A stretch of 64,000 bases of DNA from Oligoflexus sp. Its GTDB lineage: Bacteria > Bdellovibrionota_B > Oligoflexia > Oligoflexales > Oligoflexaceae. Where the stretch lies: positions 62,001 through 126,000 of the forward strand of contig NZ_DASTAT010000018.1 of NCBI RefSeq assembly GCF_035712445.1, given 5' to 3'. The notes below the pieces were generated by a model. That model made no database searches and was not told the origin of the DNA. It was given only the letters and a program-made list of their open reading frames with translations. Shown one piece after another: positions 6,487 through 30,278 of this stretch. The position numbers and the translations under genes were made by a program. Each line of letters begins with the position of its first letter. Within the stretch, counting starts at the first letter, position 1.

Positions 6487-9285
6487 ATGAAAGGTGTCAT
6501 CGACGGCGGGAAGTTCACCTATGCGAATGGTGCTAACGTAGCCTACCTGGAGAGCCTTTATAAGGAATACAAGAATAATCCGGATGCTGTGGACCCTCAG
6601 TGGAAGCTGTTTTTTGAAGGATATGAATTCGCCGCATCGAGTTCCAAGGGAGTCTCGGCCGGCGTCGGTGCCCAGGATGATTCGGAAGCCAGGGTTGAGC
6701 ACTTCATCAACCTTTTCCGCCGTCTTGGCCATCTCTCAGCAAACCTGAATCCTTTGGCCCCCAAGCCTCCTCTGGCCAGCGACCTTTTGCCAGCCAAGGC
6801 AGGTCTCGGTAACGTCACAGACAGCCAGACCTTTCATCCGGCGACGCTGCCGGTCAAAGGTCCTGTCAGCTTTGGTGAAGTGCACTCGCTCCTTCAGGAT
6901 ACTTACACGCGCACCATCGGTGCTGATTTCCGCGAACTTCCTGATAATGAAGCCCTGGAATGGCTGCAGCAGCAGATGGAAACCACCCGCAACCGTCCCG
7001 CGATCGACAATGCGACCAAGGTCCGCATTCTGAAAAAACTCACCCAGACCGAAGGCTTCGAGAAATTCCTTCAGGACCGCTACCTCGGTCAGAAGCGTTT
7101 TTCGATCGAAGGTCTCGACACCATGATGGTCCTCCTTGATGTCGTTGCCGATGAAGCAGCGAAATCCCAGGTGGAAGAGATCGAAATGGGTATGGCCCAC
7201 CGCGGCCGCCTCAACGTTCTCGCCAACTTCATGGGCAAGCCTTACGAACTCATGATCAAGGAATTCGAAGGCAGCGAGATCGAAACCTACGGCATCGACG
7301 GCGATGTGAAGTATCACAAGGGCTATGCGTCGCTGATCGAGACGATGAGCGGCGACAAGGTTCGCGCTTACCTGTCACCGAACCCTTCGCACCTTGAAGC
7401 TGTGAACCCTGTCGTGGAAGGCTTTGCCCGCGCCCGTCAGCGCATGCTGAACGATCCGCATGGTGACAAGGTGCTCCCGGTTTTGATTCACGGCGACGCG
7501 GCCTTTATCGGTCAGGGTCTGGTGGCTGAAACCTTGAACCTTTCCGAGCTGGCGTCTTACAAAACAGGTGGAACGGTTCACATCATTTCGAACAACCAGG
7601 TCGGCTTCACCACCGATCCGGAAGAAGGCCGCTCCTGCCGCTATTCTTCGGACATCGCCAAGATCGTGCGCGCCCCTGTGCTGCACGTGAATGCCGATGA
7701 CGCCGAAGCCGTGGTGTGGGCGGGCCGCATGGCAACCGCCTACCGTCAGAAATTCAAGAAAGACGTTGTGATCGATCTGATCGGTTACCGCCGTCATGGT
7801 CACAACGAAACCGATGAACCGAGCTTCACCCAGCCGGTCATGTATCAGATCATCCGCAATCATCCGACCGTCCTCACGCAGTTTGGCGAAAAACTGGTGA
7901 AAGAAGGCGTGATGACCCAGGATGCGATCGTCGCGGAAATGAAGAACTTCCGCGATATGCTGCAGACCGGAATGGAAAAGGTTCGCGCGGGTCAGGTGAA
8001 GATACTCCCGACCGTTCCCCGTGAGCTTGAAAACAGCACCAAGCATGTGAAGGCCACCGAAGAGGATCTCTTCCGTCCGGCTGAGACTGGAATCAAGGTC
8101 AACGTTGTAAAAGAGATCGTGGCCAACGCCACCAAGGTGCCCGCTGGATTCAAGCCGAATCCCAAGATCGAGCGTTTGCTGAAATCCCGCCAGGAAATGG
8201 TGGAAGGCGAAGGCAACATAGATTGGGGCCTTGCTGAAATGCTTGCGTACGGAAGCCTTGCGCTGGAGGGCAAGCATGTTCGCCTGTCCGGTCAGGACTG
8301 CAAACGCGGGACCTTCTCGCACCGTCACGCTGTGATTCGGGATTTTGAAACCGGCAAGCCCTTGGAACTTTTGAATCAGCTCGGCCAAGGACAGGCTCAG
8401 GTGGAAGTGATCAACAGCCCGCTCTCCGAGCAGGGCGTGATGGGCTTTGAATTTGGATACTCGGTAGCGGATCGTGATGCTCTCGTCCTTTGGGAAGCTC
8501 AGTTCGGTGACTTCTGCAACGGCGCTCAGATCATCATCGACCAGTTCCTCGCCGCTTCGGAAGCCAAGTGGAAACAGGCCTCGGGCCTTGTCCTCCTTCT
8601 GCCTCACGGTTATGAAGGCATGGGCCCTGAGCACTCCAGCGCGCGTCCTGAACGCTTCCTGCAGCTCTGCGGGGACAGCAATATTCAGGTCGCTAACCTG
8701 ACGACTCCGGCTCAGCTGTTCCACATCCTGCGCCGTCAGCTCCATCGTCCCTTCCGCAAACCCTTGGTGATCATGACACCGAAGAGTTTGCTCCGTCACC
8801 CGGCTGTGGTGTCGAAGACCAAGGAATTCGTCGATGGCCGCTTTGTGGAAGTCATTGATGATCTTTCGCAGAAGACCAAGAGCAAGGTTCGCCGCGTGGT
8901 CTTCTGTACGGGTAAAGTCTTCTTCGAACTCGACAAGGAGCGCAATGAGCTCGGCGTGGCCGAGCAGGTGGCCCTGGTTCGTATCGAGCAGCTTTATCCC
9001 TTCCCGGAAGAGCAGCTGAAGAAGATCATGGCCAGCTATCCTGAAGCCACAGAGATTCTGTGGGTGCAGGAAGAGCCTTCCAACATGGGCGCCTGGACGT
9101 TCATCCGTCATCGGCTTGAGGCTCTCTGCAACGAGACTCAGGAGCTCTACTACTGCGGTCGCCGCGATGCGGGTACCACGGCAGAAGGCTACACCAAGGT
9201 GCACGAGAAGGAGCAGAAGCGCATCCTCCAGGAAGCGCTGACGCTGCCAGAAAAGGCTGATAAAAAAGCCAAAAAGACCAAGTAA
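6487..9285 (+). CDS. sucA: 2-oxoglutarate dehydrogenase E1 component
   Basis: 932 aa, typical length. The N-terminal E2-docking segment (LYKEYKNNPDAVDPQWKLFF) is present, then the thiamine-diphosphate core with MGMAHRGRLNVL (about residue 235) and GHNETDEPSFTQP (about 437). The C-terminal transketolase-like domain carries EFGYSVADRDALVLWEAQFG. It decarboxylates 2-oxoglutarate and passes the succinyl group to SucB. The gene is last in the operon, after sucB and lpdA, rather than first as in enterobacteria. AGAAGGA lies upstream of ATG. Confidence 0.97.
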   Translation: MKGVIDGGKFTYANGANVAYLESLYKEYKNNPDAVDPQWKLFFEGYEFAASSSKGVSAGVGAQDDSEARVEHFINLFRRLGHLSANLNPLAPKPPLASDLLPAKAGLGNVTDSQTFHPATLPVKGPVSFGEVHSLLQDTYTRTIGADFRELPDNEALEWLQQQMETTRNRPAIDNATKVRILKKLTQTEGFEKFLQDRYLGQKRFSIEGLDTMMVLLDVVADEAAKSQVEEIEMGMAHRGRLNVLANFMGKPYELMIKEFEGSEIETYGIDGDVKYHKGYASLIETMSGDKVRAYLSPNPSHLEAVNPVVEGFARARQRMLNDPHGDKVLPVLIHGDAAFIGQGLVAETLNLSELASYKTGGTVHIISNNQVGFTTDPEEGRSCRYSSDIAKIVRAPVLHVNADDAEAVVWAGRMATAYRQKFKKDVVIDLIGYRRHGHNETDEPSFTQPVMYQIIRNHPTVLTQFGEKLVKEGVMTQDAIVAEMKNFRDMLQTGMEKVRAGQVKILPTVPRELENSTKHVKATEEDLFRPAETGIKVNVVKEIVANATKVPAGFKPNPKIERLLKSRQEMVEGEGNIDWGLAEMLAYGSLALEGKHVRLSGQDCKRGTFSHRHAVIRDFETGKPLELLNQLGQGQAQVEVINSPLSEQGVMGFEFGYSVADRDALVLWEAQFGDFCNGAQIIIDQFLAASEAKWKQASGLVLLLPHGYEGMGPEHSSARPERFLQLCGDSNIQVANLTTPAQLFHILRRQLHRPFRKPLVIMTPKSLLRHPAVVSKTKEFVDGRFVEVIDDLSQKTKSKVRRVVFCTGKVFFELDKERNELGVAEQVALVRIEQLYPFPEEQLKKIMASYPEATEILWVQEEPSNMGAWTFIRHRLEALCNETQELYYCGRRDAGTTAEGYTKVHEKEQKRILQEALTLPEKADKKAKKTK

Positions 9286-9722: not shown

Positions 9723-12560
9723 GTGTCTTACGTTTCTTTGGCCCGTAAATATCGCCCCCGTCGATTTGTGGATATGGTGGGTCAGGAATCCACAACCCTC
9801 GCGTTGACCAACGCCATTCGCCTCCGTCGTGAACCGCATAGCGTGATCTTTACCGGCGTTCGTGGAGTCGGCAAGACCACCAGTGCCCGGATTTATGCGA
9901 AAGCTCTCAATTGCGAGAATGGACCCACAGCGGAGCCCTGCGACGAGTGCGCGAGCTGCGTGGCGATTGCGTCCGGCAATCATGAGGACGTCCTGGAAAT
10001 CGACGGAGCGTCCAATACGGGCGTGGATGATGTGCGGGCTTTGCAGGAGACGCTGAGCTATGTTCCGCAGCGTTCGACCTATAAGATTTACATCATCGAC
10101 GAAGTGCACATGCTTTCGATCAGTGCCTTCAATGCGCTTTTGAAGACGCTTGAAGAGCCGCCGCAGCATGTCGTCTTTATTTTTGCGACGACCGAGCTGC
10201 ATAAGGTTCCGGAAACCATCCAGAGCCGTTGCCAGACTTTTCACCTGCAGAAGATCAGCCGGCCGGTGATTGCGGATCGCGTGCGTTCGATTCTGACAGC
10301 GGAAGGGATTCCGTTCGATGAAGGGGCGCTGGCGATTGTGGCCCGAGAGGGTCGTGGTTCGATGCGGGATGCCTTGACCATGCTCGATCAGGCGATTGCC
10401 GTGGGCGGTGGTCAGGTGAGCCTTGAGGCTCTGAAGAACATGGTGGGCAGCAGCAGCCAGGCCTTGCCGGTTCTGGAGCTGCTCGATGGTCTTTTGCGGA
10501 AGGATGCATCGCAGATTTTGGAAGTGATCGCGCGCTGGGATCAGGAAGGCCTCGCGATGAGCACTTTGGTCGAGGAAACGGCCAAGGCTTGTCGGAATGC
10601 CTTTATTTTAAGGGATTTGAAGGGTCAGGCGATCGATCTTCAGCTTTTGGAGCTGGAGGATCGGGAGCAGCAGATGCTGTTGGAGCTGGGTGAAAAAGCG
10701 GCGCCGATGGATTTGAATCGCCTTTTCCGTCAGCTTGCGAAATGTCTCGATGATCTGCGGCATGCGGATCTGGATCGTTTTATTTTGGAAAATTATTGTC
10801 TGGAGTGGTGCTTTGATCCGGGGCTCCCGGATCTGCAGACACTTATGAATATCATGGCCAGCGGTCAGCCGATGCCACAGATCGCCGCCGCACGTCCTGC
10901 GCCTCAGGCGGCGCCCGCGGAAGGTCCTGCGATTAATTTGCGGGAGCGTTGGAAGACTTCGGCACCGTCGGCGTCAGCACCAGCTGCACGTCCGGCCGCG
11001 GCACCGACATCAGCGCCTCAGCCTGCGCCTATGGCGAAGCCTGCGGCGCCTTCTGTGGGGAAAGGTTTAGGGCCTCAGGCCTCGCTTGATAAGCCTTTGG
11101 CTTCAACACCGATGAGTCAGACGGGAGTCAAATCACCACAGGTGGGTGTATCGCCGTCTCAGGCTGGCTTTGATAAGCCAGGGCCTCCAGTTTCAGGACC
11201 GTCGACAATTAGCCAGGCTTCGGCGCAGCCGATGGCAATATCTCAGCCGCCACTGCCTCCAACTTCAGCAGCGATCAGTCAGTCTTCGGCACAGCCGCTG
11301 GGTTCTGCCATGAGTCAGTCTTCAGCGCAGCCTGCTATCAGTCAATCTTCAGCGCAGCCGATGCCCCAGACCGGTGCGATGCCGTCATCTCTTGTACAGA
11401 AACTGGCCATGGCCCAAGCGGCTCAAGCCGCTCAGGTTGCTGCGGCAGCAGCACAGCCTACGTTAAATCCTTTGCGTGCAGCGAAGGAAGCCCAACTTTC
11501 GGCGATGGGAGCGCCCCACACGGCGAAATCCAATTCTCCCGGCGAGCCTGAGTCTGCGAAGACAGTCGCTCACACGCCAGCTGCTGAAGCTGCAAAACCT
11601 GAAGAAAATACCAGGCCAGCGTCATCGAACCCTGAAATTACGGCATTGCTTGAGAAAGCAAAGCCTGCAGCGGAACATACGCCACCATCTCAAATGGAAA
11701 GCGCGTCGCCACCTGCAGCCGAACCCGCACCAGCAGGCCCGGCTCCCAAATCACTGCGCTCGCTCCTGGACTCGGCCGCGCAGAACTCTGCTTCAGCGGC
11801 GAAGGCTCAGCCTGCGGCGCGCGCAGAAGCGAAACCTGCAGCACTTATTAAAACAGGCGGAACCACTCGCATGAATGGTCCGGCCATGCCTCCTGAACCG
11901 CCTCCCTTTGATTTAAGCGACGACGATGTCCCGCCCTGGGTTCTGCAGGAAGAAGCCGCCAGGCAAGGCGCCGTGGCCGCACCCATGGACGAGCCCGCGC
12001 CGCCCGAGCCTCCGAAGAACGAAAGCTTTCTGAAGCAGATGGCTCGCAGGGATGCGAATACTCCCGCGCCGCCTCCCGCGCCTCCGAAAGTCGAAGTTGC
12101 GCCGGCCCCGGTCGCCGAAGCGCCTTGGGAACCGTTCTGGCCCGAAAACTGGCGTGCATTCGTCGATGAATGGAAAAAACAAAAACCACTCCAGGGTCGC
12201 GTTCTCGAGGAAGCCTATCTTTTGGAATACACCCCGCAGCGGATCCGCCTAGCGGTCGAACCCACGAGCATGGCGGGCGGCAAGCTGCTTCAGCAGGACG
12301 TTCGCAAACGTCTTATGGAACAGTTCACGCAGCTTTTCGGCTTCAAAGGCATACTCGAAGCCGTGCCCAAAGCCGATGCGCATCCCGGGAAATCGGCAGC
12401 CGGCCAGGCGCCGGATCTAGGCGAAACGCTGTTGGACGTCAAAAACCGCGAACGCGAAGTCGCCCGTGAGCATCTGCGCGCGCGTTTGGAGGAACACCCC
12501 ATGACCCGTGAGGTAATTTCCCGTTTTGGTGGTACAATTGAACAAATCGAGCTTCAATAG
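9723..12560 (+). CDS. dnaX: DNA polymerase III subunits gamma and tau
   Basis: 945 aa from a GTG with GAGGGAG upstream; the family N-terminus YVSLARKYRPRRF starts here. AAA+ clamp-loader core: Walker A GVRGVGKTT (about residue 44), four zinc-binding Cys in CENG...CDECASC (64-79), Walker B DEVHML (about 125). A very long Ala/Pro/Gln/Ser-rich linker (about 380-800) contains a short peptide repeat. A C-terminal domain (about 800-945) matches the tau polymerase-binding region. It is larger than E. coli DnaX (643 aa) because of the linker. Confidence 0.95.
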   Translation: MSYVSLARKYRPRRFVDMVGQESTTLALTNAIRLRREPHSVIFTGVRGVGKTTSARIYAKALNCENGPTAEPCDECASCVAIASGNHEDVLEIDGASNTGVDDVRALQETLSYVPQRSTYKIYIIDEVHMLSISAFNALLKTLEEPPQHVVFIFATTELHKVPETIQSRCQTFHLQKISRPVIADRVRSILTAEGIPFDEGALAIVAREGRGSMRDALTMLDQAIAVGGGQVSLEALKNMVGSSSQALPVLELLDGLLRKDASQILEVIARWDQEGLAMSTLVEETAKACRNAFILRDLKGQAIDLQLLELEDREQQMLLELGEKAAPMDLNRLFRQLAKCLDDLRHADLDRFILENYCLEWCFDPGLPDLQTLMNIMASGQPMPQIAAARPAPQAAPAEGPAINLRERWKTSAPSASAPAARPAAAPTSAPQPAPMAKPAAPSVGKGLGPQASLDKPLASTPMSQTGVKSPQVGVSPSQAGFDKPGPPVSGPSTISQASAQPMAISQPPLPPTSAAISQSSAQPLGSAMSQSSAQPAISQSSAQPMPQTGAMPSSLVQKLAMAQAAQAAQVAAAAAQPTLNPLRAAKEAQLSAMGAPHTAKSNSPGEPESAKTVAHTPAAEAAKPEENTRPASSNPEITALLEKAKPAAEHTPPSQMESASPPAAEPAPAGPAPKSLRSLLDSAAQNSASAAKAQPAARAEAKPAALIKTGGTTRMNGPAMPPEPPPFDLSDDDVPPWVLQEEAARQGAVAAPMDEPAPPEPPKNESFLKQMARRDANTPAPPPAPPKVEVAPAPVAEAPWEPFWPENWRAFVDEWKKQKPLQGRVLEEAYLLEYTPQRIRLAVEPTSMAGGKLLQQDVRKRLMEQFTQLFGFKGILEAVPKADAHPGKSAAGQAPDLGETLLDVKNREREVAREHLRARLEEHPMTREVISRFGGTIEQIELQ
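11208..11360 (+). repeat. Four copies of a 24-nt coding repeat in the dnaX linker
   Basis: Copies at 11208-11231, 11274-11297, 11310-11333 and 11337-11360 encode the octapeptide [I/M]SQ[S/A]SAQP. Spacing between copies varies (42, 12, 3 nt). Third-position differences show that the copies are not very recent. The unit lies in a disordered linker. Confidence 0.85.
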
Positions 12561-12583
12561 TCCACAGAATGGGAAGAGCGCCG

Positions 12584-13159
12584 ATGGCCTATGCAAACTT
12601 CGAAACACGCGAAATCCATTGCAAAGTCCTTTATCTCGGCGCCCCGGGCGCAGGTAAGACCGCGAACCTTCGCTCCATCTACAGAAGAAGTTCCATCCGC
12701 CTGACCCGGGAGCCCGCAGAATTCATCGCCGATAACTTCGCGCCCTATGAATTCATCCCGCTCTCTTTGGGTCAGCTCAAGGATTTTCACGTCAAACTCC
12801 ATGTCTACACCATGCCCGAACACGGCCTCTATCCGACGTTCAACATGGTCCTCCTCAAGGGAATTGACGGCCTCGTGTTCGTCGTCGACAGCTGCCTCAG
12901 CGCTTTGCAGGAAAATCTGGATTCCTGGCAGCACACCAAAGAGCTTCTGACCCAGGAGGGCATTAACTTTTCCGCCCTGCCGCGGGTCATCCAGTACAAT
13001 AAGCGCGATCACGAAGAGGCCATTGCGCTGGATGTTTTGAAACAGGAGTTGAATCCCAACGGCCTCGCTGATATTGAAGCAGTGGCCACGCAGCACATCG
13101 GCACTTTGGAAACCATTCAAAAAATTTCAGGCCTCATCCTGGATGAGCTTGGGAAATAG
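12584..13159 (+). CDS. MglA-like small Ras-type GTPase with altered switch II
   Basis: 191 aa. The ATG at 12584 (GGGAAG upstream) gives MAYANFETREIHCKVLYLG, which matches the MglA N-terminus; an ATG 15 nt earlier lacks support. P-loop GAPGAGKT (about 22-29), base-recognition NKRD (about 141), and the MglA-typical PLSLGQL and VYTMPEHGLYP. MglA controls polarity and motility in Myxococcus and polarity in Bdellovibrio. Canonical MglA has TVPGQ in switch II; here it is TMPEH, so the conserved Gly and the Gln used for hydrolysis are replaced. No MglB (Roadblock) gene is adjacent. Confidence 0.85.
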   Translation: MAYANFETREIHCKVLYLGAPGAGKTANLRSIYRRSSIRLTREPAEFIADNFAPYEFIPLSLGQLKDFHVKLHVYTMPEHGLYPTFNMVLLKGIDGLVFVVDSCLSALQENLDSWQHTKELLTQEGINFSALPRVIQYNKRDHEEAIALDVLKQELNPNGLADIEAVATQHIGTLETIQKISGLILDELGK

Positions 13160-24257: not shown

Positions 24258-24923
24258 TTAAAGCGTTGCGGTCTGCGTTTCGACTGTCACAAGCAGGCCT
24301 TTCAGTTCTTCGATCTCAGCCTTCAAGGCTTCCAGGCTGTCTTTCAGAAGCGCATGAAGCTTCTCCCGCTCATCGGCAGCCACAGCGCGGCAGGCTTCCA
24401 GATCGGCCGCCAGGTCCTCGTCCGAACCCTGGCCACGCACCTGGGAGCAGGCGGCTTTAATCCGCTCACGAGCAGCCTGTCGTGCCGCCCGCAGTTCTTC
24501 ATGTTTGTCCTGGATGGCTTCCTTGATCTTCTGGCCCATGGATTCCAAGGCGGCTTTTTTCTCGTCATCGCTGACGGATCCATCCGCGTCCTTGTCCACT
24601 TCGCTTTTCAGTTCGGCCTTCATCTCATCCTTCAAGGATTTCAGCTCGGCGCGCAGACTGGCTTTCTCGGCCTCGCTCAGCTGACCGTCGCCATCCGCAT
24701 CCGCCTTGGCCAAAAGTTCCTTGCGCATGTCACTCGTGGATTTGATCTGGGTGCCCAGGACTTCGGTCTGAGCGTCTTTAGAGAGATTGAAGTAGACGGC
24801 TTCCACATCCGCAGGACCTTCCTCTTCGGACTCCGAAGAGGGTGGAGTATTACACGCGAGTAACAATACAATGGATCCATACACAAAGAGTGGCTGGATG
24901 ATGGACTGCGGTTTCATTTTCAT
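24258..24923 (-). CDS. EF-hand lipoprotein with coiled-coil helices
   Basis: 221 aa. Signal peptide with LLAC lipobox (Cys24). Two EF-hand calcium loops, DADGDGQLSEAE (about 75) and DKDADGSVSDDE (about 110), each with the Asp/Gly/Glu positions expected. The rest is long charged helices (LRAELKSLKDEMKAELKSEV, EEIEELKGL) likely to form coiled coil. Probable calcium-responsive envelope protein. It diverges from the regulator gene at 25202, sharing a 278-nt spacer with the paired element at 25039-25128. Confidence 0.85.
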   Translation of the reverse strand: MKMKPQSIIQPLFVYGSIVLLLACNTPPSSESEEEGPADVEAVYFNLSKDAQTEVLGTQIKSTSDMRKELLAKADADGDGQLSEAEKASLRAELKSLKDEMKAELKSEVDKDADGSVSDDEKKAALESMGQKIKEAIQDKHEELRAARQAARERIKAACSQVRGQGSDEDLAADLEACRAVAADEREKLHALLKDSLEALKAEIEELKGLLVTVETQTATL

Positions 24924-25038
24924 TGGTCCCTCCAGGAATTGAAAACCGTAGTGACACTATCGGACCTCGCTGGGAAAATTTTAAAGACGGCTCCCTTCGA
25001 AAGTCATAACAGGGCCTTGCCTGCCCTCATTTGACCCG

Positions 25039-25128
25039 TACACAAATTTTCAGGGTGTCATTTCCAATGATTTTGATAAGTGAAGCGAAAACAGTGGGTT
25101 GGAAAAATATTTTGTACACAAAAAGTGC
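25039..25128 (+). promoter_or_regulatory. Paired TACACA regulatory element upstream of the TIGR02147 regulator
   Basis: Distal half TACACAAATTTTCAGGGTG at 25039-25057 and proximal half TACACAAAAAGTGC at 25115-25128, 76 nt apart, 87 nt before the TTG start. Nearly the same two halves occur at 28900-29015 and 29776-29866 on the other strand. A GGTTGGAAAAA stretch between the halves also recurs in the second copy. I infer a protein-binding site; the bound factor is unknown. Confidence 0.6.
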
Positions 25129-25201
25129 TAAAGTTTTGAATAAAAAATCCGATAAGTACACCAGACCCTCGATTCATGCGTCAGAGTAATGGAGCTTTAG
25201 A

Positions 25202-26053
25202 TTGAAGAAGCCAGGACTAAAAGAGATCGTGAAGAAGGATGTGAAGCCGAGTGCCTATCTCGACTATCGCCTCTTCTTCAAGGCGCTCTATGAGCACAGA
25301 AAAGAGGCGGGCGAGTATTCCTATCAAAAATTTGCTGAGGACCTTGGTTTCAAAGCCACGACCGTCATGCACCAGATCGTTCATGGCTATCGTCCCCTGA
25401 CGGACAAGGCCGCAGTGAGCGTCATAGAAAAGCTGGACCTTGAAGCCGCTGAGGCTCATTATCTGAGCGCCCTCGTATCCTTCTGCAACGCGAAGACCTC
25501 GGTCAAGCGCGAGGAATACTTTCAAAAGCTGCAGACGCTCAAAAGGAAAACGCTGCCCGATGAGCTCGACAAGGATATGCTGGAATACTTCTCGGTCTGG
25601 TATAATCCTGTGATCTGGGAATTGATTGGCACTCAAGGCTTCCAAGCGGATGTGAACTGGATTGCCAAGCGCATCATCCCGAACCTGAAGCCGGCTCAGG
25701 TCAAGACCAGCCTGGAACTTCTGGAACGGCTCAACCTGATCGTCTTTGATCCGGAACTAAAAACCTATCGCCAGACCAAAGACCGCGTGAGCACGGGTCA
25801 CCGCATCAAAGGTATGGCGCTAGTCAGTTACCACAGCAGTATGATCGATCACGCCAAGGCAGCTTTGACTTCCATCAGCGGCCAGCGGCGTGACGTGAGT
25901 GCTGTGACTGTCAGTGTGAATGAAGAAACCGCGAAGAAATTGCGCGCGATGATCCACACGTTCCAACTGCAACTCCTGGATGAAGCGGATCGGGCCGGAG
26001 TCGGCGATGAGATCTATCAGATTAACATCCAACTCTTTCCCTTTACCGAGTGA
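25202..26053 (+). CDS. TIGR02147-family protein, putative transcriptional regulator
   Basis: 283 aa from a TTG start with GGAG 7 nt upstream. The family pattern is clear: YLDYRLFFKALYEHRK, then a helix-turn-helix-like SYQKFAEDLGFKATTVMHQI followed by VHGYRPLTDKA, then EAHYLSALVSF, and a C-terminal domain starting FSVWYNPVIWEL. This family is known mainly from Fibrobacter, Bdellovibrio and relatives as expanded paralog sets of unknown function. It is followed after 8 nt by a DUF4382 lipoprotein gene. Autoregulation through the upstream element is my inference. Confidence 0.85.
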   Translation: MKKPGLKEIVKKDVKPSAYLDYRLFFKALYEHRKEAGEYSYQKFAEDLGFKATTVMHQIVHGYRPLTDKAAVSVIEKLDLEAAEAHYLSALVSFCNAKTSVKREEYFQKLQTLKRKTLPDELDKDMLEYFSVWYNPVIWELIGTQGFQADVNWIAKRIIPNLKPAQVKTSLELLERLNLIVFDPELKTYRQTKDRVSTGHRIKGMALVSYHSSMIDHAKAALTSISGQRRDVSAVTVSVNEETAKKLRAMIHTFQLQLLDEADRAGVGDEIYQINIQLFPFTE

Positions 26054-26061
26054 GGGCACGA

Positions 26062-26928
26062 ATGCTGAAGGATATAGTCAACATCATGAAGGCCGCAGTG
26101 TGCGTGCTCGTTATCGACGCCTGTGGAGGAACCCTTGGCGGCAATCCCGAAATAACGGATCCTGATAGCCAGCAGCCTCCTGATCCTGCAAAGTCTCCGG
26201 CCCTGACCTTCTCGATCACCGATGCCCCGGTGGAAGAGGCGCGGCATGTGTATATCTCTGTGGAAAGCATTCAGGTTGCGCAGGCTGAAGGCAGCTGGAT
26301 CAGCATTCCTTTGGAAACTGATGCGGAAATCGACCTGCTGCAGCTGCAGAACGGAGCCACCGAGCTGCTGGCCTCCATCGAGGATCTACCGGCTGGAACC
26401 TATACCCAGACCCGTTTAATCCTGGCCGAGGAAGCCCCTGGACGCCTGGTTGATAACGAGGGCGTGGAACACTCGCTCGTGATTCCAAGCGGCTCGGAGT
26501 CGGGCTTGAAACTTATGACCAGCTTTACCAAGGTTGATGGCGAGCCCATGGCCTTCACGATCGACTTCGACCTGCGCAAGTCCATCAAGTCCGCCGGCAA
26601 CGGCAGCAAGAGCAAATATCTTCTGAAACCCGTCCTGCGCATGACCGACGACCGCAAGTCCGGCAGCGCCGCGGGTGAAGGTGAGAACGGTTCCGTGGTC
26701 TGCGTTTACGCCGATGGCGCGACCAAGGACAGCGATGACTCCTGTGAAAACGCCATCACCTCGACCACTGTTAAGAATGGTCAGTTCAAGCTCGCCTTCC
26801 TTGAGCCTGGAACCTATGACCTGCGAGTCTTCCGTAACAAGACTGCGGTCGGTGACGTCGATGACGTCGTGGTCAAAGCGGGAAGCAGCGATAATAATGA
26901 CGAGGATACAAAGGTCAAACTGCCTTAA
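26062..26928 (+). CDS. DUF4382 lipoprotein
   Basis: 288 aa from the ATG that follows TGAGGG; a GTG 12 nt earlier overlaps the previous stop. Signal peptide ends IDAC, so Cys18 is probably lipidated. Residues about 45-190 match DUF4382: LTFSITDAPVEEARHVYISV, SIEDLPAGTYTQTRL, and KYLLKPVLRM. Residues 200-288 look like a prealbumin-type beta sandwich (KLAFLEPGTYDLRVF), often used in surface proteins. It is the second gene of the regulator operon. Confidence 0.85.
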   Translation: MLKDIVNIMKAAVCVLVIDACGGTLGGNPEITDPDSQQPPDPAKSPALTFSITDAPVEEARHVYISVESIQVAQAEGSWISIPLETDAEIDLLQLQNGATELLASIEDLPAGTYTQTRLILAEEAPGRLVDNEGVEHSLVIPSGSESGLKLMTSFTKVDGEPMAFTIDFDLRKSIKSAGNGSKSKYLLKPVLRMTDDRKSGSAAGEGENGSVVCVYADGATKDSDDSCENAITSTTVKNGQFKLAFLEPGTYDLRVFRNKTAVGDVDDVVVKAGSSDNNDEDTKVKLP

Positions 26929-26972
26929 AAATAGATTCCAGCTCGTTCGCCTAAGACACATTGGAGAAAAAA

Positions 26973-27767
26973 ATGAAACCATGGCCAAACCTGGTTATTG
27001 GACTCGGGATGATTTTGTCCATCAGCTGCTCGAAGGGTAAGTTTTCGGAAGACAAGAATGCGGGTGACAACTACGACATCAAGATCGTGGATCCCAATGC
27101 AGACGCCACAGCCGCTCCTGGCACCACAACGGCCACGGTAGAGGGTCCGGACGCCGGTGTGGACAGCAAGGATTCAGGCGGCGGAGCAGGGACCGGCGCC
27201 GATGCCGGTGACAGCGGCAGCGGGAAGGGTGGAACCACCACCGGCACGGGGGGTGATGACAGCACGGATTCATCGGATGGCACCAGCGGCAAAGGTTCCG
27301 ATAAGGGCAGCGACAAGGGAAACGGCAAAGAAGCCGGGAAAGGCGGTGATGCTGATGCCGGAGAATGCGCCTCCGCGGCCGGTATCAATAAGAGTCGCGT
27401 CAAAGTCAGTGGCAATCAAAAGAGTCTGACCATGGCCCCTGGTGATGCCTTTGCCTTGAAGGTGACCGGCAATCAAAACGTCGTGAACCTGAAGATGACC
27501 GGCGACGCTCCCGGTGCACGCGTATCGGCCATCTGCCTTTTCCTGGCTGGAAATCAGAGTCATGTGACCATGGATATCGGCGTCTCGGTGGGCAGGATCT
27601 TTATCAAAGCTCGCGGCAACAAGGCTTTGGTCGAGGGTTCCATCAGCAAGGACGGCGTGATCGAAAATCTTCAGGTCGATGCCAATGGCAATCAGCCGAG
27701 CATTGTCATGAAAGGTGAGGGAACCTATCCCTGTGATCAGGCGGCTGTCTCGTGTCAGAAGCCTTGA
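26973..27767 (+). CDS. GNQ-repeat lipoprotein A
   Basis: 264 aa; ATG preceded by TTGGAG. Signal peptide ends SISC (Cys19). Residues about 45-135 are low complexity Gly/Ser/Asp/Lys (GSDKGSDKGNGKEAGKG), a probable surface spacer. Residues 140-260 are beta-rich with a repeated GNQ or GNK turn (SGNQKSL, TGNQNVV, AGNQSHV, RGNKALV, NGNQPSI) about every 20 residues, resembling a small beta-helix or DUF3060-like fold. Cys pairs may form disulfides. It is a clear paralog of the protein at 27848-28771 and the last gene of the regulator operon. Confidence 0.8.
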   Translation: MKPWPNLVIGLGMILSISCSKGKFSEDKNAGDNYDIKIVDPNADATAAPGTTTATVEGPDAGVDSKDSGGGAGTGADAGDSGSGKGGTTTGTGGDDSTDSSDGTSGKGSDKGSDKGNGKEAGKGGDADAGECASAAGINKSRVKVSGNQKSLTMAPGDAFALKVTGNQNVVNLKMTGDAPGARVSAICLFLAGNQSHVTMDIGVSVGRIFIKARGNKALVEGSISKDGVIENLQVDANGNQPSIVMKGEGTYPCDQAAVSCQKP

Positions 27768-27792
27768 TCCTTCTTTAGGCTCAAAGGAAGAA

Positions 27793-27821
27793 GCGGAATC
27801 CCGGTGGGGTTCCGCTTTTTT
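27793..27821 (+). terminator. Terminator of the regulator-lipoprotein operon
   Basis: GCGGAATCCC (27793-27802) pairs with GGGGTTCCGC (27806-27815), followed by TTTTTT. Preceded by AA-rich sequence, so it may work in both directions between the convergent paralogs. Confidence 0.85.
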
Positions 27822-27847
27822 CATACTGCATCGAGGGACTTCAGAGA

Positions 27848-28771
27848 TCAGGGATTACATTGAAACTGAGGATCGTTCCCCTTCAGGTTCGCACCTTGAC
27901 AGAGTTTGGAATCAAGACCGACCACATTCAGAGCAGCCTGGTTACCTTTGAGTTCGATATGCGAGCGAATAGGGCTTCCTCCAAGGAATTCGATCGCACC
28001 CGAAGACTGGTTACCTGCGGCTATGTAAGCGAGGCCGTTGATCTGCGAACCTGTCGTGAACTTCACTTCAGCTTTATTACCAGCCACGAAGAAGCAGACA
28101 CCTGGGACATCGTTACCTGCGGGCAGATAAAGATTCATGCTGGAATAGTTGCCAGTCAGCTTAAAGGCGAGCACAGTGCCAGGAGCCACCCGCAAATCGT
28201 TTGTAGCCGAGGGGTCGACCACTTTGATCTTCTGGCTCAGACCGCGGAAGTGGGGCAAGCAGGCTTTGGCGACGGCTTTGCTGTCAAAGCTGGAATCAGG
28301 CGTGCTGCCTGTGCTGCCACCTGTGGAACCCGAGCCTGTTCCTGTGCCCGAGTCAGGTGTGTTGCTGCCGCTAGCAGAATCAGGCGTGTTGGTCACAGGC
28401 ATGGCATCGGCTGATGATGCGGAGTCGGAGCTGTCGTTGCTGGCCACGTTGTTGCTGTTTTTGTTTTTGCCACGACCGTTCTTGCCTTTGGTGACGTCTT
28501 CCGCCGCATCCATGGCTTCCCCGGTTTCCGCCGCATCCATGGCTTCGCCTGTTTCAGAAAAGTCACCTGAGTAGGCGATGGCGTCGGCGCTTTCAGCGTC
28601 TTCACCCATCAATTCATCCATATCGAAGGAATCGTCATCGGTTGCGGATTTATCCAGAGTAAGAGTGATAATGCCTTCTGGCTTCTCGACGAAGGACGGT
28701 GTATCGCTACCACAAGCAGCCAGAACGAAAGGCAAACCAAGGCAGACTAAATGTTGAAATCCAAGTTTCAT
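27848..28771 (-). CDS. GNQ-repeat lipoprotein B
   Basis: 307 aa. Signal peptide ends LAAC (Cys20). An acidic stretch contains a perfect 9-residue duplication (ETGEAMDAA twice). A Gly/Ser/Thr/Pro spacer (SGSNTPDSGTGTGSGSTGG) follows. The C-terminal 130 residues align with lipoprotein A: VAPGTVLAFKLTGNYSSMNL, CFFVAGNKAEV, AAGNQSSGAIEF, LKGNQAALNVVG. The two genes converge, and the shared C-terminal domain beside different spacers suggests an inverted duplication with fast drift of the linkers. Confidence 0.8.
   Translation of the reverse strand: MKLGFQHLVCLGLPFVLAACGSDTPSFVEKPEGIITLTLDKSATDDDSFDMDELMGEDAESADAIAYSGDFSETGEAMDAAETGEAMDAAEDVTKGKNGRGKNKNSNNVASNDSSDSASSADAMPVTNTPDSASGSNTPDSGTGTGSGSTGGSTGSTPDSSFDSKAVAKACLPHFRGLSQKIKVVDPSATNDLRVAPGTVLAFKLTGNYSSMNLYLPAGNDVPGVCFFVAGNKAEVKFTTGSQINGLAYIAAGNQSSGAIEFLGGSPIRSHIELKGNQAALNVVGLDSKLCQGANLKGNDPQFQCNP
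28501..28554 (-). repeat. 27-bp tandem repeat, two copies, in lipoprotein B
   Basis: 28501-28527 and 28528-28554 differ at two positions and encode ETGEAMDAA twice. It keeps the reading frame. Confidence 0.9.
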
Positions 28772-28899
28772 GTTATCTCCTCCAAGAACTACATCCTACC
28801 CTTCGGAGCTGCCCCCCTCATTCCAAGCTACCCTGATTTTCCCCTTGCGATAAAGCCCCTTACCGCAGGCAATTACCGGCCGGTAAAAAAGTGATTTCT

Positions 28900-29015
28900 G
28901 CAGATTTTGTGTAGACCCTGATAGCATTGGGGTTTTTCCAATCCTTGGAAATCCTTAAAGGAAAATGAACAAGGCGCCTGCGGTGTTCAACCGAAGCGCC
29001 CTGAAAACTTGTGTA
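28900..29015 (-). promoter_or_regulatory. Paired TACACA element upstream of lipoprotein B
   Basis: On the minus strand: distal TACACAAGTTTTCAGGGCG at 29015-28997, identical at 17 of 19 positions to the copy at 25039; proximal TACACAAAATCTGC from 28913, identical at 12 of 14 to that at 25115. The halves are 102 nt apart, and the proximal one is 142 nt before the ATG. GGATTGGAAAAA lies between (28933-28944). Confidence 0.6.
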
Positions 29016-29056
29016 GATTGCGGAGAGTAACGCGTGTCAGAAGTGAAACGTAAGAA

Positions 29057-29656
29057 TCAGGGCGCAGCGGGACAGGGCTGCTGCCGTGTGATCATGAAGT
29101 TCTTATCGTTCTGGGCCTGCTTGGAAACAATCGCAACATGCGTATCGCAGGCGGCATTGATCACAAAATTATTGATGACCTTGGCTTTCACGTTGAAGCA
29201 ATACCAGCCTTTGGGATTCAGAAAAGCAAGCTGCCCGTTGTTACCAACGGTGATATTGAAATTGACAAGAAAGAGCGTGGGTTTGGTCGTAATCTTATCG
29301 TCGGTATAAATCACGCTATTGTTGTTCACCGTATCCGAGATGTCGACAAGCTTGGGCTGTGCGATTTCCTGCGGCGTGAAGGGCGAATTGCCCCACTGTT
29401 TGATGCATTCGTTCAGCGCTGTCTTATCCTCGGCGTTGACCAAAGGCGTCGCGGGAGGCGCTGCAGGGTCCATGGGATCTGAAGGCATCGTGCCAGGGAC
29501 CTGCTCCGCGGTGGAGTCGATGGTTTCCTGAGTGACGGCTTCCGGCGTTGCAGGGCTTTCTCCAGAAGATGTTGAGCCGGTTTTGAATTCGCTGCCCGAG
29601 CAGGCCGCGAGCATGCCACAGAACGCCAAAACCGAAATTGACGAAAACGTTCTCAC
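29057..29656 (-). CDS. Putative lipoprotein, distant relative of the GNQ pair
   Basis: 199 aa. Signal peptide ends LAAC (Cys19). Residues 20-75 are a Pro/Ser/Glu-rich spacer. The C-terminal part is beta-rich (VDISDTVNNNSVIYTDDK, NITVGNNGQLAFLNPKGWYC, FVINAACDTHVAIV) and has Asn-Gly turns and Cys residues like the GNQ lipoproteins, but the similarity is weaker and could be convergent. It is oriented with lipoprotein B and carries its own upstream paired element. No known family recognised. Confidence 0.75.
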   Translation of the reverse strand: MRTFSSISVLAFCGMLAACSGSEFKTGSTSSGESPATPEAVTQETIDSTAEQVPGTMPSDPMDPAAPPATPLVNAEDKTALNECIKQWGNSPFTPQEIAQPKLVDISDTVNNNSVIYTDDKITTKPTLFLVNFNITVGNNGQLAFLNPKGWYCFNVKAKVINNFVINAACDTHVAIVSKQAQNDKNFMITRQQPCPAAP

Positions 29657-29775
29657 GTTGCTCTCCCTTTTTGCACGATTATTGCTGAGTGTTATGTAAC
29701 TGTTCGGTCATTGGCGGGCGCGTCTTGATACACAAAAAAAAGGGGGCGATTTCCGCCAGGATCGCGCCGGTTTAC

Positions 29776-29866
29776 GGTCACTCTGTGTACGTTCAATTCA
29801 TCCAGAGACCGGAGATGACTGGAAAATAAAGGTGGGGTAGGGCCGAAAGGCTGAAATTTCTGTGTA
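29776..29866 (-). promoter_or_regulatory. Paired TACACA element upstream of the 29057-29656 lipoprotein
   Basis: Minus strand: distal TACACAGAAATTTCAG from 29866, which matches the other distal halves with one inserted base; proximal TACACAGAGTGACC from 29789. The halves are 77 nt apart, and the proximal one is 133 nt before the ATG. It lies close to the divergent CBS gene at 29889 and might affect that as well. Confidence 0.5.
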
Positions 29867-29888
29867 AATCACGAAGGAGGGAGAGTCC

Positions 29889-30278
29889 ATGGAAAAAAAC
29901 CGCGAACCCATCGCAAAATTCATGACCCGCACACCGCATTCCATCGAACCAGGTCAGCCGCTGGAAGAGGCCCGAAAAATTATGGGCCGGCATGATATTC
30001 GTCATCTGCCTGTGCTCTCGGGTGGTCGTATCGTGGGACTGCTCTCGGAACGGGATCTGACTTACATCCGCACGCTGCCGGGCGTAGGCCAGGATCTGAA
30101 GGTGAAGGATGCGATGGTCTATGATCCCGTCCTGGTGTCCGAATCGGAATCGCTTCGCGATGTGGCTCAAAAGATGGCCGCGGCCCATATCGGATCCGTC
30201 CTGGTGTGCGACAGTCGCAGCAGGCTCACCGGAATTTTCACCTACACGGATGCTTTGCGTGTGCTGGGGGAAAGTTGA
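29889..30278 (+). CDS. CBS-domain pair protein
   Basis: 129 aa made of two CBS motifs: MTRTPHSIEPGQPLEEARKI ... RHLPVLSGGRIVGLLSERDL, then VYDPVLVSESESLRDVAQKM ... IGSVLVCDSRSRLTGIFTYTD. Stand-alone CBS pairs bind adenine nucleotides and act as sensors; the partner is unknown. AAGGAGGGAG is a strong ribosome-binding site. It is monocistronic, ending in a terminator at 30288. Confidence 0.93.
   Translation: MEKNREPIAKFMTRTPHSIEPGQPLEEARKIMGRHDIRHLPVLSGGRIVGLLSERDLTYIRTLPGVGQDLKVKDAMVYDPVLVSESESLRDVAQKMAAAHIGSVLVCDSRSRLTGIFTYTDALRVLGES

Follow-up and report, generated by a model that had tools for sequence, protein, structure and literature searches.

Repression through two operators that are bridged by the bound protein is familiar from LacI (O1-O3) and GalR, and autoregulators of the XRE family with divergent promoters are likewise known. 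The locus described here lies at 24.2-30.3 kb of a 64-kb stretch of DNA (the window), which corresponds to positions 62001-126000 of contig C18 in the 7.27-Mb source genome, G000; relatives are labeled G001-G007, and C denotes the contig number. It carries paired TACACAA boxes upstream of a gene encoding a TIGR02147/DUF4423 regulator and of lipoprotein genes. As with LacI and GalR, two copies of one box lie tens of base pairs (bp) apart, one of them at a predicted start site, but the window boxes are direct rather than palindromic, their spacing is 76-102 bp, and bridging is a predicted feature. As with XRE autoregulators, the regulator and a divergent target share a spacer containing likely operators, whereas the DUF4423 C-terminal domain, the lipoprotein partners, and the FliA-type promoters differ from that arrangement. 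Judging from sequence, we assign a probability of roughly 0.58 to the reading that the TIGR02147 regulator uses the paired TACACAA boxes as its operators, with the first pair situated between two divergent predicted FliA promoters, those of the regulator and of a lipoprotein gene.

The same promoter type characterizes the attack-phase regulon of Bdellovibrio bacteriovorus, where, according to the available text of PMC3627812, FliA has been proposed as a global attack-phase regulator that recognizes TTAAG-N16-CCGATA promoters and drives many non-flagellar genes, including cell-surface genes and two regulators; FliA in Bdellovibrio is also covered in the available part of PMC12622784. The window belongs to another lineage and adds the paired box and the TIGR02147 regulator; this family is not named in the available text of PMC3627812. 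A DUF4423 protein, Bd3700, is listed as upregulated during growth in prey, and no operator or target was described for TIGR02147/DUF4423 in the literature searched, within which the present locus is the first found to offer this widespread family a candidate operator, candidate targets, and a possible link to a sigma factor. These observations suggest that relatives of Oligoflexus, too, use FliA as the kind of lifestyle gate for surface genes proposed for the Bdellovibrio attack phase, in this case with private regulators as a putative second layer, and that surface lipoproteins would be linked through the locus to the motility program. Oligoflexus tunisiensis is described as non-motile in the available part of PMC5154148, and the source genome is named only Oligoflexus sp.

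Paired boxes and one regulator clade

A sequence-only reading of the window had proposed a distal TACACAA-N-TTTTCAG and a proximal TACACA-type block in three intergenic regions, and motif searches located every copy where it had placed them: distal at 25039 (+), 29015 (-), and 29866 (-), and proximal at 25115 (+), 28913 (-), and 29789 (-). The first pair, also examined by alignment, consists of a distal box at 25039..25053 (+), in which a conserved TACACAA is followed by a non-conserved TTTTCAG, and a proximal TACACAA at 25115..25121 (+). The second comprises TACACAAGTTTTCAG at 29001..29015 (-) and TACACAA at 28907..28913 (-), and the third comprises TACACAGAAATTTCAG at 29851..29866 (-), which reads TACACAG-AAATTTCAG with one extra base, and TACACAG at 29783..29789 (-); an additional TACACAA in opposed orientation lies 60 nt from the third pair (29729..29735, +). 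The reported agreement between copies (17/19 distal and 12/14 proximal, recounted by eye) and the spacings of 76, 102, and 77 nt for the three pairs are correct. The spacings had been read as close to whole helical turns, which does not hold, since 76, 77, and 102 nt correspond to 7.2, 7.3, and 9.7 turns at 10.5 bp. Phase clustering is weak (R 0.54 at 10.5 bp, p ~0.03, from 11 non-independent pairs).

The three spacers contain two, two, and three copies of TACACA/TGTGTA, compared with about 0.03 expected in each from the rate in the rest of the window, where six copies occur in the ~58.9 kb outside 24.8-29.9 kb. By itself, the long motif at up to three mismatches is not unusual within the 64-kb window (4 matches versus 3.87 expected). 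TACACAANTTTTCAG occurs exactly twice in the genome, both times in the cluster, and never with one mismatch, and at up to two mismatches it falls to the genome-wide background (28 matches versus 34 for the reversed-pattern control). A genome search for TACACA-N68..98-TACACA, that is, pairs spaced 74-104 nt apart, returned six matches versus three for the reversed control: three in the cluster, and one each at C99:29462-29566, C145:114596-114703, and C93:39990-40096. The C99 and C145 pairs are unlinked to the cluster and lie upstream of lipoprotein genes, while the C93 pair, in and behind an adenylate-kinase-like gene, looks like a chance match; five of the six pairs thus precede lipoprotein or TIGR02147 genes, as had been anticipated. 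The expected spread to TIGR02147 paralogs was not found, as no TACACA pair lies in the 350 nt preceding any of the 18 other TIGR02147 matches in G000. Across G000-G007, pairs at 74-104 nt number 34 versus 19 in the control.

The association of the element with a TIGR02147 regulator and with lipoprotein genes stands: the pairs precede such genes, and the regulator (25202..26053, +; 283 aa, TTG start; open reading frame (ORF) list and profile searches) scores far above the family cut-off, at 229.7 bits versus 50 for the NCBIfam model TIGR02147 over residues 18-282 of 283. The C-terminal Pfam domain DUF4423 scores 114.3 bits versus a cut-off of 30 and is present in all 82 aligned sequences. Orthologs of the regulator share 66-71% identity in G001, G003, and G004 and 43% in G007, and all four are preceded by a same-orientation pair, at spacings of 86 (G001), 88 (G003), 89 (G004), and 87 (G007). 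A second locus in G001 (C112) has a regulator fragment with a pair at 88, and G007 (C56) carries four boxes, a forward pair with a spacing of 87 and a reverse pair with a spacing of 86. Of the 82 TIGR02147 matches in G000-G007 (eight genomes), 37, mostly among the stronger, had their upstream regions examined. The pair precedes 6/6 proteins of the clade to which the regulator belongs and 0/31 other TIGR02147 proteins; a single TACACA was present upstream of two of these 31. In a tree drawn with a midpoint root, the six pair-bearing regulators fall together on the same side of a branch supported at 95/90, and the distribution requires one change in 92% of bootstrap trees. At the second G001 locus (L195), the regulator frame extends over only ~100 aa, and both boxes and both FliA-type promoters are retained.

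Alignment of five spacers (G000, two from G001, G003, and G004) shows that the boxes have been kept in orthologous spacers of related genomes. Its invariant positions include CCC-N-TACACAAA, TACACAA, part of the -35 element, and CCGATAAG, with few longer invariant runs. The TTTTCAG half did not survive this comparison, reading TTTTCGG, CTTTCGA, or TCTTCGG in relatives, where TACACAA is invariant; the conserved part is therefore the pair of TACACAA boxes, not TTTTCAG. TACACAANTTTTCAG as a functional unit was consequently rejected. The TTTTCGG of relatives corresponds on the other strand to CCGAAAA, the -10 of a divergent FliA-type promoter, and the TTTTCAG of the window may be a remnant of such a -10, its own divergent promoter being predicted elsewhere, at 24983-24957. 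The observation of paired boxes is confirmed as real and as more than chance.

FliA-type promoters and box geometry

Behind the first proximal box lies a sigma-28 (FliA) type promoter, CTAAAGTTT-N11-TCCGATAA, assigned to the regulator (25129..25155, +; pattern search and matrix), which is the sole exact match in the genome to TAAAGTTT-N12-CCGATAA; at up to two mismatches this pattern has 37 genome matches versus 23 for the reversed control. The divergent lipoprotein gene has a promoter of the same type with two mismatches (24957..24983, -; pattern search and matrix). Under a matrix built from 17 other genomic matches, without the two locus promoters, these two rank first and second in the window with scores of 27.6 and 20.3, the next independent site reaching 15.7. 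The sequence-only reading overlooked both the FliA-type promoters at the first pair and the divergent gene that shares it. FliA-type promoters of 14.5-22.9 bits precede both divergent genes in G001 (both loci), G003, and G004. The FliA gene itself is located at G000:C140:91165 (287.8 bits versus a cut-off of 189.6) in a flagellar-type cluster with flhB-, flhA-, and flhF-like genes, neighbor names having been read from translations, and FliA exceeds the cut-off in 53/57 genomes, G000 included. For sigma-70, five promoter matches occur in 24900-29960 versus 2.9 in shuffles, including two weak sites (9/12) in the first spacer at ~24.95-25.01 kb and none in the other two spacers. FliA-type sites are not a significant mark of lipoprotein genes in general in G000 (9/37 sites versus 13/102 control ORFs by a rough lipobox rule, p 0.12).

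In the window (7 nt), G001, G003, and G004, a gap of 7-8 nt separates the end of the proximal box from the -35 of the regulator, which lies downstream of it. Read by eye, the divergent promoter of G001 (both loci), G003, and G004 has the distal box 3-4 nt behind its -10, so that its predicted start is covered. In G007, boxes lie 4 and 6 nt behind the -10 of both promoters (by eye; promoter matches weak, 7.4 bits or eye-read), and at C99 and C145 a box lies 6 and 8 nt (by eye) behind a FliA-type -10 in the order box, FliA-type -10, box, lipoprotein. The partner box is found 86-102 nt upstream. This combination of a box at a predicted start and a partner 86-102 nt upstream makes a two-box repressor the preferred mechanism. 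FliA would open the locus, and the regulator would occupy two boxes 76-102 bp apart through a predicted XRE-like helix-turn-helix (HTH); at the box over the predicted start, the bound protein would then block transcription, an effect that bridging to the partner box would assist. Candidate blocking sites are the divergent promoter in G001, G003, and G004, both G007 promoters, and the lipoprotein promoters of C99 and C145. Given its position upstream of the -35, the window's proximal box would instead tune the regulator's own expression, and the pairs before the genes at 28771 and 29656 would add both lipoproteins to this regulon, with promoters of another type.

Several observations weigh against the operator reading. 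Over 57 genomes there is no pair enrichment (23 versus 35 in the reversed control, 7 of the 23 being at the loci described), and a FliA-type -10 followed by TGTGTA is not enriched in G000 (5 versus 12 in the control), so that it is no general genome-wide rule; C99 and C145 are two of these five. A matrix scan of the window gave no FliA-type promoter at the 28.9- and 29.8-kb pairs. Spacings of 99-102 do not share the helical phase of those of 76 and 87, the orientation of the boxes relative to the gene varies, and the reading frame at C145 is open across the promoter. In the window, unlike in the relatives, no box lies over the predicted start of the divergent promoter, because the divergent gene differs and its promoter lies beyond the distal box. 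The window regulator matched no HTH model in the Pfam scan, and a five-sequence structure model was of too low quality for use (pLDDT 64), with low-confidence helices over positions 36-83. On the supporting side, HTH_3 was matched in 8 of the 82 aligned relatives; weak PDB profile matches to an antidote protein and to C.BclI cover positions 44-80 and 36-83 (E 0.4-0.5).

It is conceivable that the regulator is an activator that recruits FliA polymerase from the proximal box, the distal box serving as an auxiliary site. Lying 7-8 nt upstream of the -35 (window, G001, G003, and G004), the proximal box indeed occupies a usual activator position, but a protein bound 3-8 nt behind the -10, as in G007, C99, C145, and the divergent promoters of relatives, would block transcription, and the promoter of the regulator is already an exact consensus match, which leaves this explanation unlikely. 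Binding of a different, unlinked transcription factor, with the TIGR02147 regulator as merely one target, would accommodate the two unlinked targets (C99 and C145) and the two local ones that have no FliA-type promoter; we regard it as quite unlikely, since the pair follows one TIGR02147 clade and the target set is small. Moreover, G006, in which no clade member was found (8/21 of its matches being in the tree), has six pairs, among which no extragenic one has a FliA-type site of at least 12 bits (one intergenic pair: 11.4).

Duplication might also have carried functionless remnants of upstream regions along with lipoprotein genes, as pairs 2 and 3 both precede lipoprotein genes, the first of the GNQ type like that at 26973-27767, and the copies share TTTTCAG. 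Yet the three spacers are dissimilar around the boxes by eye, and neither box of the first pair varies across five spacers in which most of the rest has changed, so that this origin appears highly improbable. Finally, the shortness of the motif and the missing pair enrichment over all genomes would be compatible with chance matches, which are nevertheless hardly credible in view of the clade restriction, the density in the spacers, the genomic positions of the pairs, and the five-spacer alignment, conservation in orthologous spacers being what disfavors them.

TIGR02147 loci in general and the surrounding genes

FliA-type sites of at least 14 bits occur within 250 nt upstream of 26/74 TIGR02147 genes versus 6/156 control ORFs (Fisher p 9e-10), and four of those six controls are lipoprotein genes that neighbor a TIGR02147 gene. 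Such a site is still present in 21/68 TIGR02147 upstream regions once the TACACAA clade is left out, and 19 of 48 real upstream regions exceed all 60 of their own mononucleotide shuffles (count from table). The ORF directly downstream frequently carries C-[GSAT]-x2..4-G-N-[PG], a CGxxxGNP-type motif, near its N-terminus (34/60 TIGR02147 loci versus 2/199 controls). The window's partner lipoprotein at 26050-26928 is among these 34, with CGxxxGNP/G where the mature lipoprotein would begin; literature searches with the motif strings tried found nothing on this motif. By the rough lipobox rule, a lipoprotein is encoded downstream at 17/59 TIGR02147 loci and divergently at 10/59, versus 7/122 controls in each case. 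Repeated 13-mers in the 37 upstream regions gave nothing clear relative to shuffles, a test in which the TACACAA clade itself is non-significant. An offset of 76 showed five shared 7-mers versus a mean of 0.94 per offset, as did an offset of 57.

From these data, a broader reading may be entertained, which we consider tentative and rather doubtful: TIGR02147 proteins would be class-wide surface-lipoprotein switches, each paralog being FliA-gated and heading a two-gene module with a CGxxxGNP lipoprotein, partly with a divergent lipoprotein, and with its own clade-specific box repeated at favored spacings of ~76 or 87 bp. If so, FliA would be a common gate, each lipoprotein locus would have one private repressor, and the coat would be chosen at the lifestyle change.

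The lipoprotein labels of the window genes are readings of their N-termini. The divergent lipoprotein (24258..24923, -; ORF list and Pfam scan) has EF-hand-like repeats below Pfam cut-offs. Downstream of the regulator, a DUF4382 lipoprotein (26050..26928, +; ORF list and Pfam), with the mature start CGGTLGGNP and a longest ORF that overlaps the regulator's stop, is followed in the probable operon by a GNQ-motif lipoprotein with no Pfam match (26973..27767, +; ORF list and Pfam). Another GNQ-motif lipoprotein lies behind the second pair (27848..28771, -; ORF list), its matrix scan giving no FliA-type promoter. The third pair is followed by a lipoprotein gene (29057..29656, -; ORF list), and a CBS-domain protein is encoded divergently from it (29889..30278, +; ORF list and Pfam). 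The orthologous regulator of G003 (L080) has GNQ-like lipoproteins as neighbors at 7945-8805 and 12137-12781, whose FliA-type sites score 15.4 and 12.2 bits; the latter protein, the one scanned of the two, has no Pfam match.

Other TIGR02147 clades show possible boxes of their own. Three members of a sister clade (G000:C53:8443, G000:C53:14242, and G002:C388:2589) have TCATGTGC in the expected -35 place, and in the same members TCATGTGCRNAAA replaces the -35 just upstream of CCGATA. TCATGTGCRNAAA has eight matches in G000, of which only the two at regulators fit, and none in the control. In G007:C102 (L185/L217), two mirrored GTGCA pairs, 76 nt each, lie upstream of 9466, before another TIGR02147 gene. 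As paralog-specific boxes, the sister-clade -35 element and the GTGCA pairs are suggestive only; the GTGCA layout resembles that of the four TACACAA boxes of G007:C56, with a different box.

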